DNA of 64,000 nucleotides, from assembly GCF_003581645.1 (NCBI RefSeq), contig NZ_QXFK01000015.1, positions 124,001 to 188,000 of the forward strand, given 5' to 3'. Below, piece by piece: positions 19,859 through 35,033 of the stretch. Each line of letters starts with the position of its first letter. Position 1 is the stretch's first letter. The DNA is from Pelagerythrobacter aerophilus (GTDB taxonomy: Bacteria; Pseudomonadota; Alphaproteobacteria; Sphingomonadales; Sphingomonadaceae). The position numbers and the translations under genes are program-made. The notes below the pieces were generated by a model. The model searched no databases, had not been told where the DNA came from, and saw nothing but the letters and a program-made list of their open reading frames with translations.

Positions 19859-20815
19859 TCAGGCCGCCTTGGCGAGCCGTGCTTGCGCGGCCACGAGGCG
19901 GCCCATGACTTTCAGGTCCTGCTCGCGCAACTGGAGCGCGGAATCGGCCCATAGCTCGGTGATACGGTTCAGTTCCGCCAGTTCGAGGTTCCAGGAAACC
20001 TTCATCGCGCGCCGCGAATTGACCAGCCCGGCGTGGCGGCGGTCGGACTTCTTGATGAATTCGCGGCAGGCGGCGAGGCCCTGTCCATTCTCGGCGAGGT
20101 GATGCACGAGGCCGATCTCGTACATCTGCTCCGCACTATAGGTCTCGTTCGACACGATCAGTCGGTCGGCCATAGCGCTGCCGACCTTGCGGCTCAGCAG
20201 GGCGTGCGCCCCCATCCCGGGGAACAGGCCGAACATGATCTCCGGCAAACCGAACGTCGCACCCCGTTCGGCCACGATGTAGTCGAACGACAGCAGCGCC
20301 TCGAACCCGCCGCCCAGCGCCGCGCCCTCGACCAGCCCGACGGTCAGCATCGGCAGGTCGAGCGAGGCGATGTTGCGGTGGAGGATCTTGCAGCAGCGAT
20401 GGCCGTAGCGCACCAATCCGTCGCGATTGTGCTCGCGGATCAGGCGCTGGAAGAGGTCGAGATCGCCGCCGAAGCAGAACACGCCCGGCGCCCGGCTGCC
20501 AAGCACGAGGAAGCGCAGCGGCACTTTCTCCGGCCCGAACCCCTGCTCGATATAGACCTGCCAATTCTCAAAATCGCCGAGCATCGTGGGCGTGAAGCTC
20601 GGCCGTCCCTCCGGGTTCATGTAGGTCCAGAGCGTCTGCGTCGCGTCCTCGTAGAAGACGTCGAGCTCGTGAAGCTGGAACAGACCTTCGGGAATTGCCG
20701 CGTGTCGCGCGCTTTCCGCGACCAGCATCTCGTCGCCTGCACCAAGCGGAATAGCTGGCTGGTCCGAACCCGTTTCAGGTTCGACATTCTCGATTCCGGA
20801 ACTCACATGATCCAT
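19859..20815 (-). CDS. RpfF-like crotonase, probable DSF-family signal synthase
   Basis: A 318-residue crotonase-fold protein resembling RpfF, the enzyme of Xanthomonas and Burkholderia that makes cis-2-unsaturated fatty-acid signals (DSF) from acyl-ACP. Diagnostic blocks are FGGDLDLFQRLIRE, GLVEGAALGGGFEALLS, FGLPEIMFGLFPGMGAHALLSRKVG, TYSAEQMYEIGLV and NRITELWADSALQL. The two catalytic glutamates of RpfF (Glu141 and Glu161) correspond to Glu172 and Glu192 here, with the same 20-residue spacing. The protein is about 30 residues longer at the N-terminus than RpfF. No rpfC, rpfG or rpfR gene is in the window. It follows the exopolysaccharide operon on the same strand and has its own promoter region. 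A generic enoyl-CoA hydratase is the alternative, but the RITELW tail favours RpfF. Confidence 0.8.
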   Translation of the reverse strand: MDHVSSGIENVEPETGSDQPAIPLGAGDEMLVAESARHAAIPEGLFQLHELDVFYEDATQTLWTYMNPEGRPSFTPTMLGDFENWQVYIEQGFGPEKVPLRFLVLGSRAPGVFCFGGDLDLFQRLIREHNRDGLVRYGHRCCKILHRNIASLDLPMLTVGLVEGAALGGGFEALLSFDYIVAERGATFGLPEIMFGLFPGMGAHALLSRKVGSAMADRLIVSNETYSAEQMYEIGLVHHLAENGQGLAACREFIKKSDRRHAGLVNSRRAMKVSWNLELAELNRITELWADSALQLREQDLKVMGRLVAAQARLAKAA

Positions 20816-20857: not shown

Positions 20858-20865
20858 AAGCGTAA

Positions 20866-20881
20866 TCGACACGCGAGTCAA
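20866..20881. promoter_or_regulatory. Imperfect palindrome TCGACACGCGAGTCAA upstream of rpfF-like gene
   Basis: A 16-base near-palindrome overlaps TTGACT, a good minus-strand -35 element of the rpfF-like gene. Size and symmetry suit a TetR-type repressor; no regulator is identified. Confidence 0.35.
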
Positions 20882-20905
20882 TTGGCAAACGATTAATTAA
20901 CTTTG

Positions 20906-20931
20906 CTGACGGCCGGTCCCGATCCGGGGCA
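20906..20931. promoter_or_regulatory. Shared 26-base element, copy 1 (upstream of rpfF-like gene)
   Basis: The core is the near-palindrome GTCCCGATCCGGGGC (20916-20930). The 26-base element matches a second copy at 33766-33791 at 23 positions, in the same orientation relative to the downstream gene. It lies about 90 bases before the rpfF-like start codon, in the 137-base gap after the exopolysaccharide operon. Confidence 0.6.
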
Positions 20932-20952: not shown

Positions 20953-22851
20953 CTAGCCCGATATGCCCAGGCGATCGAGCGAGCGGTCGAGCATCAGGAG
21001 CTGCCACAGTAGCCGCGAATGGTCCGACCGTCCGGCGATATGCGCCTCGGCGATCGTGCCGAGCCGGATCTCGTCGAACCAGCCGGTGCGGGCCAATCGC
21101 GCGCCGGTCGCGATCGCCCGCGCCTCACCGGCCAGCGGCCCGCGCAGCCACTGCGCGATGGGTGTGACGAAGCCCTGTTTCGGACGGAATAGCACGTCGT
21201 CGGGCAGGTAGCGGCGCATCGTGTGCTTGAGCAGCCACTTGCCCTGTCCCCCCCTGATCCGCTCGCGCTGCGGCAACTGCGCCGCGAACTCGATCAGCCG
21301 GTGGTCGAGCAGCGGCTCGCGCGCCTCGAGACTCACGTCCATGCTCGTGCGGTCGACCTTGGTCAGGATGTCACCGGGCAGCCAGAACTTGAGATCGGCA
21401 TATTGCGCGCGGTCGAGCCCGCTCCGGGCGGGCGCAGCGCGCATCATCTCCATCAGCGGATCTTCGGCGCGGTAGCCGCCGATCTCGCGCGCGAAGCGGT
21501 CCGTGTAGAGCGCCCCGCGGAGCTCCGGTGGGACAACGCCGAGCGCGCGCGCGTATCCCGCCGCGCCGTCATCGGCGAGCGACTGGAAGGTGGTCTTGGC
21601 GCGCAGGGGGCGCGGCGCCCAGTCGGCCTTGGGCCAGATCGCGCCGAGGCCGCCAAACACCGGCCGCCGCAGTGCGGCGGGTAACACAGCGCGCGCCTGC
21701 TCTTCGCGGGCATGGAAAATCTGGCGGCGATAACCGGCGAAGGCTTCGTCCGCCCCGTCACCCGAAAGCGCCACTGTCACCTTCTCGCGTGCAAGTTGGC
21801 ACACCCGCCAGGTGGGCAGCGCGGAGGCGTCGGCGAAGGGCTCGTCGAACATGGTCGCGAGCCGGTCCACGGCGGAGAAGTCGTCGGGATCGACCGTGCG
21901 GCTGCTGTGATCGGTGCCGAAACGCAGCGCGACTTGTTCGGCGTAGGCCGTCTCGTCGAGCGCCGCGACGTCGAAGCCGATCGAGCAGGTCTTCACCGGA
22001 TCGCGGCTCGATTCCGCCATCAGGGCAACGACCGAGGAGGAATCGACACCGCCCGACAGAAAGGCGCCGAGCGGCACATCGGCGACCATGCGCGAGGTCA
22101 CCGCCCCGCGCATGTGGTGCAGGAGTTCGGCGGAAAGATCCGCTGTCGCGCCCGAGCGGCGGCGAGTGAAATCGACGTCCCACCACTGCACCGGCGGCGG
22201 CGGCGCGGCCTCGTGCCGGAGCACACGATAGTGGCCGGCGGGCAATTTCTCGACGCCTCTCAGGATCGAGCGGTGGTCGGGTACGTAGCCCCAGGCGAGA
22301 TAGTCCTCAATCGCCAGAGGATCGGCCTCCCGCCGCAGCAGGGGGTGCGCGAGGAGGCCCTTGAGTTCCGAGGCGAAGGCGAGGCTTCCGTCGCTCAGGT
22401 GCGCCATGAACAGCGGCTTCACCCCCAGCCGGTCGCGCGCGAGGAGCAGTTCGCGGCGGTGCGCGTCGTAGAGCGCGAAGGCGAACATGCCGTGGAGGCG
22501 CGGCAGGCACTCGACGCCCCAGCGGGCCCAGGCGGCGAGGATCACCTCGGTGTCGCCGTCGGTGCGGAACTGCGCGCCTTCGCTCGCAAGCTCACGCCGC
22601 AGCTCGCGGTAGTTGTAGATCTCGCCGTTGAAGACGATCATCGCGCGCCCGTCCGCCGAATGCATCGGCTGTGGCGATCCCGCGACGTCGATGATCGAGA
22701 GGCGGCGATGGCCGAGGCCGACGCCCGGTCCGGTCCAGACTCCCGAACCGTCAGGGCCGCGATGCGCGAGCGCGTCGGACATGCGGCCGACCCGCTCGGG
22801 ATCGACCGGCTTGGGAATGCCGCAATGAAAGATCCCGGCGATGCCGCACAT
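20953..22851 (-). CDS. Asparagine synthase-like amidotransferase, exosortase A system type
   Basis: A 632-residue glutamine-dependent amidotransferase. Cys2 of MCGIAGIF is the glutaminase nucleophile. The synthetase domain has the PP-loop AFLSGGVDSSSVVALM near residue 262 and ALSGDGADEAFAGYRR. AsnB-like enzymes encoded in exosortase A loci form their own subfamily and are thought to amidate a sugar or peptide component of the exopolysaccharide rather than make asparagine. It is the last gene of the ten-gene operon and starts nine bases after the exosortase stop. Confidence 0.88.
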   Translation of the reverse strand: MCGIAGIFHCGIPKPVDPERVGRMSDALAHRGPDGSGVWTGPGVGLGHRRLSIIDVAGSPQPMHSADGRAMIVFNGEIYNYRELRRELASEGAQFRTDGDTEVILAAWARWGVECLPRLHGMFAFALYDAHRRELLLARDRLGVKPLFMAHLSDGSLAFASELKGLLAHPLLRREADPLAIEDYLAWGYVPDHRSILRGVEKLPAGHYRVLRHEAAPPPPVQWWDVDFTRRRSGATADLSAELLHHMRGAVTSRMVADVPLGAFLSGGVDSSSVVALMAESSRDPVKTCSIGFDVAALDETAYAEQVALRFGTDHSSRTVDPDDFSAVDRLATMFDEPFADASALPTWRVCQLAREKVTVALSGDGADEAFAGYRRQIFHAREEQARAVLPAALRRPVFGGLGAIWPKADWAPRPLRAKTTFQSLADDGAAGYARALGVVPPELRGALYTDRFAREIGGYRAEDPLMEMMRAAPARSGLDRAQYADLKFWLPGDILTKVDRTSMDVSLEAREPLLDHRLIEFAAQLPQRERIRGGQGKWLLKHTMRRYLPDDVLFRPKQGFVTPIAQWLRGPLAGEARAIATGARLARTGWFDEIRLGTIAEAHIAGRSDHSRLLWQLLMLDRSLDRLGISG

Positions 22852-32989: not shown

Positions 32990-33634
32990 TCAGAACATGC
33001 TTTCGGGGATGATGATCACGTCGCCCGGCTGGAGCATGACGTTGGCGCGGCTGTCGCCGTCCTTGAGCAGGTCACCGAGCCGCAGCGCAAATTCGCGCTG
33101 GCGCCCGGCCTGCTTGTCGAAGCGGATCAGTTTGGCACGATTGCCGGCGGCGAACTCGCTCAGGCCGCCGACCGCGATCATCGCGTCGAGCACCGTCATG
33201 TTCGCACGGTAAGGGATGGAGGCGGGCTGTTCCGTCGCGCCGACGATGCGGATCTGCTGGCTGAACGTGCCGGCGAACTGCGTCACGATCACCGAGACCA
33301 GCGGCTCCTCGATATACTGCGAGAGCTGCAGGCGGATATCTTCGGCCAGCATCGCCGGCGTCTTGCCGACCGCCGGCATGTCCGCGACGAGCGGTGTGGT
33401 GATGCGCCCGTCGGGGCGGACCTGGATCTTCTCCGCGCCCAGTTCGGGATTACGCCAGACGTGGATCGTCAACTCATCGAGCGGCCCGATGACATATTCC
33501 TCGCCCGGCCCTTCCTGCATCGCGACGAACGAAGCGGGGGGCAGCTGCGCGCCGCCACCGCCGGCGCAGCCTGCGAGCGAGAAAGCTGCCAGCGCGGTGC
33601 CGGCGAGCGCTTTGGAAAGTCGGGCGATGGGCAT
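32990..33634 (-). CDS. Polysaccharide export lipoprotein (Wza-like, SLBB), exosortase A system
   Basis: A 214-residue outer-membrane export protein. The lipoprotein signal peptide ends with the lipobox SLAGC (Cys23). The Poly_export domain starts at EYVIGPLDELTIHVWRNPEL, and an SLBB domain follows (QQIRIVGATEQPASIPYRAN to LQPGDVIIIPESMF). It should form the periplasmic/outer-membrane channel for the polymer. The ATG at 33634 is chosen because the signal peptide begins there. It is the first gene of the ten-gene operon, so its upstream region carries the main promoter. Confidence 0.93.
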   Translation of the reverse strand: MPIARLSKALAGTALAAFSLAGCAGGGGAQLPPASFVAMQEGPGEEYVIGPLDELTIHVWRNPELGAEKIQVRPDGRITTPLVADMPAVGKTPAMLAEDIRLQLSQYIEEPLVSVIVTQFAGTFSQQIRIVGATEQPASIPYRANMTVLDAMIAVGGLSEFAAGNRAKLIRFDKQAGRQREFALRLGDLLKDGDSRANVMLQPGDVIIIPESMF

Positions 33635-33806
33635 CGATGCACGTCCTTGCCTGTCTTGCGGGCACGACATGCGGAGCGGAGGAGCGACCTCCCTTTCCGC
33701 ACCCGCGGTTCAAGGGACGCTTCCTCGCCAAAAAGGGTGAAAATACTATTAGCCTTCTTCGCCTTCTGACGGACGGTCCCGATACGGGACAGCCAGGGCG
33801 AAAAGG
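33635..33806 (-). promoter_or_regulatory. Promoter region of the exopolysaccharide operon
   Basis: These 172 bases hold the shared element at 33766-33791 and, between it and the gene, an AT-rich tract (minus-strand GGCTAATAGTATTTTCACC) that is the best -10 region available. I looked for a sigma-54 -24/-12 pair, because PrsR-controlled exosortase systems use one, and did not find a correctly spaced GG-N10-GC. Confidence 0.45.
33766..33791. promoter_or_regulatory. Shared 26-base element, copy 2 (head of exopolysaccharide operon)
   Basis: The core GTCCCGATACGGGAC (33776-33790) is a perfect palindrome with 6-base arms and a 3-base centre. The 26-base element agrees at 23 positions with the copy at 20906-20931. 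It lies about 130 bases before the export lipoprotein start. Confidence 0.6.
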
Positions 33807-35033
33807 TTAAACGAGCATCTGCCGCGCGGGACCGTGGCCGAGGAAGTCCGCCGGCGATGCCGTCGCACCGTAGGCTCCGGCGCAGAACACGGCGACGAGA
33901 TCGCCAACCTCGGCGCGCGGCAGGTGGGCCTGGTCGGCCAGCCGGTCGAGGGGCGTGCACAGGCATCCGACGACGTTGGCCTCTTCCTCGGGCACGGCGT
34001 CGAAGTGCGTTGCGATCGCCAGCGGATAGTTCCGGCGGACGACGGTGCCGAAGTTGCCCGAGGCGGCGAGCTGGTGGTGCAGGCCGCCGTCGGTGATGAG
34101 GAAGGTCTGGCCGTGGCTGATCTTCCGGTCGATTATGCGGGTCAGATAGACCCCCGCCTCGCCCACGAGATAGCGACCGAGTTCGATGCAAAGCTCGGTT
34201 GCCGCGAGGTTGTCCGGCAGTTCCGCGAAGCGATCGGAGAGCGCCGCGCCGACTGCCTGGATGTCGAGCGGCGTGTCGCCATTGAAGTAGGGGATGCCGA
34301 AGCCGCCGCCCATGTTGAGCTTGGGCAAGGCCGCGCCGATCTCGCCCGCGAGCCGGTCGGCCAGTGCAAGCACGTTGGCCTGGGTCTCGATGATCGCCTC
34401 GGCGTCGAGCGCCTGGCTGCCGGTGAAAATGTGCAGCCCGCGCCATTCCGCGCCCGCTGCAATGATCTTGCGCGCGAGAGCGGGCACTCGCTCCTCGTCG
34501 ATCCCGAACTGCTTGGCGCCGCCGCCCATCTTCATACCCGATCCGCGCAGCTCGAATGAGGGGTTCACGCGGATCGCCAGGCGAGGCCGAACTCCGCGCC
34601 TTTCGGCGATTGCCAGCGCGCGTCGTGCTTCTCCCTCAGATTCGAGGTTGATCGTGCAACTGGCTGATATCGCGAACTCAAGTTCCTCGTCGCGTTTTCC
34701 CGGACCGGCAAAGCTCACCCATGCGGGATCGATGCCCGCCTCGCCAAGCCTCGCGAGTTCGCCCGCCGACGCGACATCGAAACCGTCGACCAGTCCGGCC
34801 ATGAATTCCAGCACGGGCGCGTGAGGATTGGCCTTGATCGCGTAGTTGATCCCCAGCCGCTCGGGCATGGTGTCCCGCAGGGCCGCCGCCCGGCCGCGCA
34901 GCATGTCGCGCGAATAGACGAACAGGGGCGTCGCCCCTGCCTCCGCGACCAGATCGCTTGCCTTGCGCCCACCGATGGCGAGTTCGCCGTCGACTGCCAC
35001 AAAACCGTCCGGAATGGGACCAAGAGGCTTCAT
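33807..35033 (-). CDS. PLP-dependent decarboxylase, exosortase A system-associated
   Basis: A 408-residue fold-type III (alanine racemase-like) decarboxylase related to diaminopimelate and ornithine decarboxylases (TIGR03099 type). Lys67 in INYAIKANPH is the PLP lysine, the glycine-rich phosphate loop is in KLNMGGGFGIPYF, and the catalytic Cys region is VVGCLCTPLDRL. The natural substrate is unknown; next to an AMP ligase and an ACP it probably makes an amine or decarboxylated amino acid for transfer. The ATG overlaps the ligase stop as ATGA. Confidence 0.9.
   Translation of the reverse strand: MKPLGPIPDGFVAVDGELAIGGRKASDLVAEAGATPLFVYSRDMLRGRAAALRDTMPERLGINYAIKANPHAPVLEFMAGLVDGFDVASAGELARLGEAGIDPAWVSFAGPGKRDEELEFAISASCTINLESEGEARRALAIAERRGVRPRLAIRVNPSFELRGSGMKMGGGAKQFGIDEERVPALARKIIAAGAEWRGLHIFTGSQALDAEAIIETQANVLALADRLAGEIGAALPKLNMGGGFGIPYFNGDTPLDIQAVGAALSDRFAELPDNLAATELCIELGRYLVGEAGVYLTRIIDRKISHGQTFLITDGGLHHQLAASGNFGTVVRRNYPLAIATHFDAVPEEEANVVGCLCTPLDRLADQAHLPRAEVGDLVAVFCAGAYGATASPADFLGHGPARQMLV

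Follow-up and report, generated by a model that had tools for sequence, protein, structure and literature searches.

The two elements and their genes

Two similar intergenic elements, one upstream of an rpfF-like gene and one upstream of an exopolysaccharide export gene, raise the question of whether a single regulator reads both and, if so, which protein this would be. Both lie in the 64-kb window (the whole stretch of DNA analysed), copy 1 at 20906-20931 (CTGACGGCCGGTCCCGATCCGGGGCA) and copy 2 at 33766-33791 (CTGACGGACGGTCCCGATACGGGACA). Recomputation confirmed the 23 of 26 identical positions claimed in the initial annotation, and both copies indeed sit between two minus-strand genes in equal orientation. 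The likely ATG codons are those at 20815 (rpfF-like gene) and 33634 (export lipoprotein gene), some 90 and 130 bases away, respectively. The perfect 15-base palindrome ascribed to the second copy was not recovered, as its 6-bp arms GTCCCG and CGGGAC pair and the inner ATA is unpaired. The 26-base likeness is confined to part of the genus; between genera only a 15-bp core endures, the dyad GTCCC-N5-GGGAC.

By profile search, the minus strand of the window carries an exopolysaccharide locus of the XrtA/PEP-CTERM type, in the order TIGR03099 decarboxylase, TIGR03027 export lipoprotein, TIGR03007 chain-length protein, tyrosine kinase (scoring under its family cut-off), exosortase XrtA, TIGR03108 amidotransferase and rpfF-like crotonase. 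The genes and dyads discussed below are the following.

33807..35033, minus strand: XrtA-associated PLP-dependent decarboxylase (TIGR03099), the gene before the export-gene dyad
33776..33790, unstranded: exact GTCCC-N5-GGGAC dyad, core of the putative operator that precedes the XrtA exopolysaccharide export gene (sequence and family comparison)
32990..33634, minus strand: XrtA/PEP-CTERM exopolysaccharide export lipoprotein (wza), operon head (TIGR03027, 218 bits, cut-off 180)
20953..22851, minus strand: XrtA-associated amidotransferase (TIGR03108), the gene before the rpfF-like dyad
20916..20930, unstranded: GTCCC-N5-GGGGC, the one-mismatch core of the putative operator that precedes the rpfF-like gene (sequence)
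19859..20815, minus strand: rpfF-like crotonase (NF006452/PRK08788 above cut-off; below the RpfF cut-off)

The crotonase, scored from a start six bases later than 20815, passes the PRK08788 family cut-off (352.5 bits, cut-off 177) and does not reach that of the NCBIfam RpfF equivalog (206.7 bits, cut-off 550), so that signal synthesis by this enzyme is only a guess. Pelagerythrobacter rhizovicinus is among the nearest named relatives, with 97% in the crotonase.

Copy number against chance

The core is not commoner than chance in the window, where 15 matches with up to three mismatches were counted compared with 15.9 in shuffled sequence, and in its own genome GTCCC-N5-GGGAC is rarer than a backwards control, both exactly (2 versus 6) and with up to one mismatch (86 versus 177). 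Pooled over 22 genomes, exact dyads again number fewer than the control (73 versus 116). The one-mismatch core was discarded as a genome-wide marker because it gives fewer matches than the control. The 25-mer long form with up to three mismatches was found twice in the 3.65 Mb of the genome and its control not at all. The initial annotation had named random scatter across the genome as evidence against a shared element; loose copies are indeed scattered and fall below the control, and the long form stands at two places only. The features above chance are this long form and, chiefly, the conserved position of the dyad in relatives. Seven genomes of the genus were scanned with the extended motif, which has two matches each in this genome and three others and none in the remaining three. 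Two of these last three were compared at the loci themselves, and in both the dyad is exact before wza and has one mismatch before rpfF.

The same one-mismatch site was also seen on two contigs (L004 and L005; G000 C6 and C14) of this assembly, for which contamination is given as 4.71%, and the gene that follows it at L004 encodes a secreted protein that looks rich in glycine.

Conservation upstream of the export gene

To follow the dyad through the family, 80 regions around the export gene were taken from 79 genomes, 78 of the regions having both flanking genes. An exact dyad precedes wza in 33/78 regions (dinucleotide-shuffle mean 0.01) and a dyad with up to one mismatch in 48/78 (shuffle mean 0.53); both counts include L087, which lies outside the main clade and whose site touches the end of plp, and the 48 also includes L126, whose site is downstream of the second conserved element described below. 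Across the 80 loci (1.58 Mb) there are 33 exact dyads, all before wza, and no copy of a control dyad of the same composition. Absence upstream of orthologues in close relatives, which had been named as grounds for abandoning the proposal, is thus not what we observed for the export gene, where the site is present. All the orthologues belong to a single family and share ancestry, and the counts are of genomes, not of events; on the protein tree most dyads fall within one clade, and at least five gains or losses are needed. Genomes without the dyad before wza have no other dyad in common there. The dyad is probably a control switch that has been kept across about thirty related genera, likely read by one regulator.

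A decayed wza dyad occupies the usual place in L109 and L103, which belong to one genus, and one of these two genomes is without prsR.

The dyad as DNA or as RNA

Base by base, the arms of 46 wza sites selected at up to one mismatch are fixed to 82-100%, and their middle is variable. Toward the gene follows a second conserved element.

33736..33752, minus strand: second conserved element, here CTAATAGTATTTTCACC and in the family consensus CTAACGGTATNTTCACC, maybe a -10 region or the site of a second factor

In 47 regions (excluding L126) the spacing from the dyad to this element is 29, 38-40, 49-52 or 59-62 bp, a periodicity with a resultant of 0.91 near 10.7 bp, and the spacing class has switched at least nine times on the protein tree. 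Since the spacing to a conserved element changes by whole helical turns, a protein probably reads the dyad as DNA.

A dyad could alternatively act in the transcript, as a hairpin or terminator closing the preceding gene, and its start does often fall 16 bases past the preceding stop codon. All 14 of 14 single arm changes, however, destroy pairing (a set drawn at up to one mismatch cannot contain compensated pairs), and L078, L103, L109 and L127, the four regions that match the dyad at best with two mismatches, also fail to restore it. Covariation is absent at the inner pair (paired 34 times, versus 35.4 in shuffles), and no run of four T is found within 12 bases after the dyad on the gene strand in 46/46 sites. 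Together with a spacing that tracks the DNA helix, these observations make an RNA function extremely improbable, and an intrinsic terminator was rejected since the dyad has neither a compensated stem nor a T-run. It is very likely, judged from these comparisons, that the dyad serves as an operator for a DNA-binding protein, and both arm conservation and helical phasing would fit a dimeric one.

The second element, CTAACGGTATNTTCACC, occurs before wza with up to three mismatches in 66/78 regions, including regions without a dyad. With up to one mismatch it has 16 places in eight genomes (control 5); by position, 4/4 exact copies are at wza and 9/12 one-mismatch copies are elsewhere, so by itself the element marks nothing. 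If its TATNTT is taken as a -10 hexamer, the spacing at wza is out of step with rpfF and the other promoters.

The putative promoter of the rpfF-like gene

Upstream of the rpfF-like gene, promoter-like features follow the dyad.

20883..20888, minus strand: -35-like TTGCCA, also conserved among relatives, 35 bp after the centre of the putative operator
20875..20879, minus strand: GANTC (GACTC) in the promoter spacer
20860..20865, minus strand: putative -10-like TTACGC, 17 bp from the -35-like hexamer

With up to one mismatch the dyad is found in 11/29 rpfF upstream regions (shuffle mean 0.24), none of the 29 being exact. A set of 79 named rpfF loci, which overlaps the 29, has the site in 8/79 with up to one mismatch and in 54/79 with up to two. 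The expectation that rpfF-like orthologues would carry the element is therefore borne out in part: the site is kept above shuffles, and it is weaker than at the export gene, with mostly two mismatches. Where a -35-like hexamer follows the dyad in these relatives, it mostly does so at 35, 37-38 or 45-47 bp.

GANTC is the target of CcrM methylation and of GcrA in alphaproteobacteria. It lies within 30 bases of a -35-like hexamer in 38/79 named loci (L264-L343), and the window has 93 copies per 64 kb in total; the rpfF-like gene may be cell-cycle timed.

A probable wider set of targets

Exact dyads were scanned for in 22 genomes, picked for having a wza site, and number 73, comprising 20 before wza by position and 53 elsewhere. 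Although 85% of the latter loci is intragenic, 39/53 of these sites are outside called genes (the calls come from a simple ORF finder, and at least one start, at L199, is too long). Recurrent gene families follow 27/53, a number that includes L199 and L232, added by reading; the family names are by reading unless Pfam is named.

6 sites (L202, L231, L235, L239, L249, L261): protein of 51-63 aa with a PEP-CTERM-like tail, between apparent hisF and hisE
7 sites, plus the second exact site of the P. aerophilus genome: L,D-transpeptidase (LDT; YkuD by Pfam)
4 sites: DUF1465 (Pfam)
4 sites: small ORF beside a zinc-ribbon gene
in pairs: PilZ (Pfam), TonB-receptor and HU-like genes

One of the PEP-CTERM-like proteins (L235), whose likeness is by reading, and one small ORF have no Pfam match. 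Sequences resembling -35 and -10 hexamers adjoin some of the operators. TTG is found at +16 after the dyad in 5/6 PEP-like and 4/4 small-ORF promoters, where the ATG lies 50-55 after the dyad, as if these transcripts started at or near the start codon (near-leaderless). The LDT and DUF1465 promoters are a poorer fit, with TTG at +16 in 1/8 and 0/4, respectively; in several LDT promoters CATAAG-like bases stand where a -10 hexamer would be expected. Judging by these neighbors, the regulon seems wider than two genes, with other targets that would be mostly envelope genes.

A candidate regulator

One motif match in the P. aerophilus genome lies 12 bases before a gene of the NtrC family (P0001; G000:C2:55000-56418, about 68 kb before the window), which stands between an apparent pntA and an SDR gene. 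Its product has a receiver domain (PF00072), an AAA+ domain (PF00158) and a Fis-type helix-turn-helix (HTH; PF02954), all above the Pfam cut-offs, which is the makeup of an NtrC-family bacterial enhancer-binding protein (bEBP), and it reaches the cut-off of none of the 24 NCBIfam equivalog families listed, the best being ntrC at 290.9 bits (cut-off 558.6). The usual receiver residues are intact by eye, and the HTH aligns to the DNA-binding domain of NtrC (1ntc) and is nearly invariant across orthologues. The sigma-54 loop reads GAFPGA instead of GAFTGA. The same genome encodes another NtrC-family protein with an intact GAFTGA (L153), and a further one 3.7 kb away.

An orthologue of P0001, over most of its length and with at least 42% identity, is present in 78/80 genomes, including genomes where wza is without a site. 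Of these, 70 were examined and eight distant ones left out. The 60 bp preceding the regulator start contain a site with up to one mismatch in 31/70 (mononucleotide-shuffle mean 0.22), mostly 11-15 or 21-25 bp before the ATG; by kinship these are 28/52 nearer relatives and 3/18 farther ones outside the clade. Conserved CCTTAA and TTT-CCC-like bases upstream of the gene suggest that the operator there is probably near the transcription start. This operator is slightly different, its left arm often being GTACC or GTGCC.

The fourth loop residue is T in 13/70 orthologues and P or A in 57/70. A wza dyad accompanies a non-T loop in 46/55 genomes and a T loop in 3/13 (Fisher's test, 6e-5, which ignores kinship); this comparison omits two regulators without a wza region and counts L087 and L126 as having the site. 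On the tree there are at least eight loop changes and at least four site changes, with L087 and L126 here set as lacking the site. As a point against the account proposed below, three T-loop genomes have the wza site.

On balance these data favor the NtrC-family protein as the factor that would bind the dyad; counting against it, 39/70 orthologues are without a site within 60 bp of their start. Another dimeric regulator might instead bind the operator, with the NtrC-family gene merely one of its targets. This would suit the presence of the gene where the targets have no site, the deviant left arm of its own operator and the many other genes that carry the site. On the other side, the Fis-type HTH, the altered GAFTGA and the sigma-70-like targets cohere, the site at the regulator start recurs in genomes outside the clade, and the listed downstream genes show by reading no further transcription regulator save a RodZ-like HTH protein (L252) and HU-like proteins (L203, L263). 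We regard such another regulator as the less likely alternative, one that deserves to be kept in mind.

A further candidate is PrsR, in which case the site would be the sigma-54-dependent enhancer that serves the PEP-CTERM system. PrsR is encoded in 77/80 and RpoN in 80/80 genomes, and the site is found at an XrtA gene and a PEP-CTERM-like gene. The published PEP-CTERM enhancer is a 17-nt motif ending TTTACA and followed by a -24/-12 site (PMC1569441), a description that the dyad does not fit. TGG-N9-10-TGC is absent from the wza and rpfF regions of the same genus (L072-L077), and it occurs family-wide in 14/78 wza and 7/29 rpfF regions, several times inside the neighboring gene. The PrsR recognition helix is nearly the same with or without the dyad (30 of 31 read), and none of 24 prsR upstream regions (24 placed of 31 tried), which served as a control for the regulator-start sites, carries the site. 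PrsR was discarded as the binder on motif, promoter type and recognition helix despite the co-occurrence of PrsR, RpoN and XrtA, and we consider its involvement very improbable.

Proposed mode of action and related systems

The palindrome would be an operator for a dimeric regulator with a Fis-type DNA-binding domain, and the binder is predicted to be the orphan NtrC-family response regulator described above (receiver, AAA+ and Fis HTH). The change of the GAFTGA loop to GAFPGA suggests that this protein would use promoters of the sigma-70 type instead of sigma-54 promoters. Before the export and rpfF-like genes, the operator would precede the promoter and keep to one face of the helix, an arrangement that fits activation by contact with RNA polymerase, and the envelope-gene promoters may likewise be contact-activated and of the sigma-70 type. 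At the regulator's own gene, the operator near the likely transcription start would fit self-repression. Activation at the export operon is, in our estimate, somewhat more probable than not, and the account as a whole, an NtrC-family dimer that represses its own gene and activates sigma-70-type promoters, appears reasonably likely from the genomic comparisons. The initial annotation had proposed a common dimeric regulator linking signal synthesis to polymer export. Of this proposal the shared regulator gains ground: the site is conserved before both orthologues, the exact copies in the 80 loci are confined to the export gene, arms and phasing fit a dimer and there is now a candidate. The link to signal synthesis fares less well, as the crotonase is below the RpfF cut-off. 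The regulon appears wider than the two genes proposed.

As a tentative evolutionary reading, which we hold at somewhat below even chances, a sigma-54 enhancer-binding protein of the Erythrobacteraceae could have switched sigma partner when the T of GAFTGA was replaced, its operator being recruited to XrtA export, the rpfF-like gene and genes of the cell wall, where it would be an activator site of the contact type, in phase with the helix. The residues T, P and A at this one loop position offer a natural series on how an enhancer-binding protein leaves sigma-54. For XrtA exopolysaccharide loci, the comparisons supply a cis code that can be put to the test, along with a candidate for the protein reading it, distinct from the published PEP-CTERM box, and the same code joins these loci to an rpfF-like enzyme and to cell-wall genes.

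In the open literature (subscription papers being mostly outside it) we found no paper on such a regulon, on GAFTGA with Sphingomonas exopolysaccharide, on rpfF with exosortase, or on RpfF or diffusible signal factor in Erythrobacter or Novosphingobium, and nothing apt for the motif letters or related regulators. Four known systems are comparable in part. Exopolysaccharide is the target of VpsR in Vibrio cholerae. The candidate has only a weak sequence match to this protein (7v2b, 106 bits). According to PMC10274813, VpsR (spelt VspR there) and the NtrC proteins of Caulobacter and Rhodobacter are bEBPs without GAFTGA that act at sigma-70 promoters, and Caulobacter NtrC affects envelope polysaccharide. 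The Caulobacter and Rhodobacter proteins share with the candidate the NtrC architecture and the loss of the sigma-54 loop, sigma-70 action being a prediction here; they differ in having lost the loop by deletion, according to that source, and in controlling nitrogen, whereas here the loop is kept with T changed to P or A. PrsK/PrsR with the PEP-CTERM box (Haft 2006) likewise combines a cis site tied to XrtA systems with a Fis-family regulator, but the motif and protein are different and the sigma-54 promoter is theirs. The E. coli NtrC operator is TGCACC-N5-GGTGCA. It resembles the present dyad in its 5-bp spacer, in keeping with the alignment of the candidate HTH to 1ntc, and is unlike it in the half-site, here GTCCC, and in the targets.
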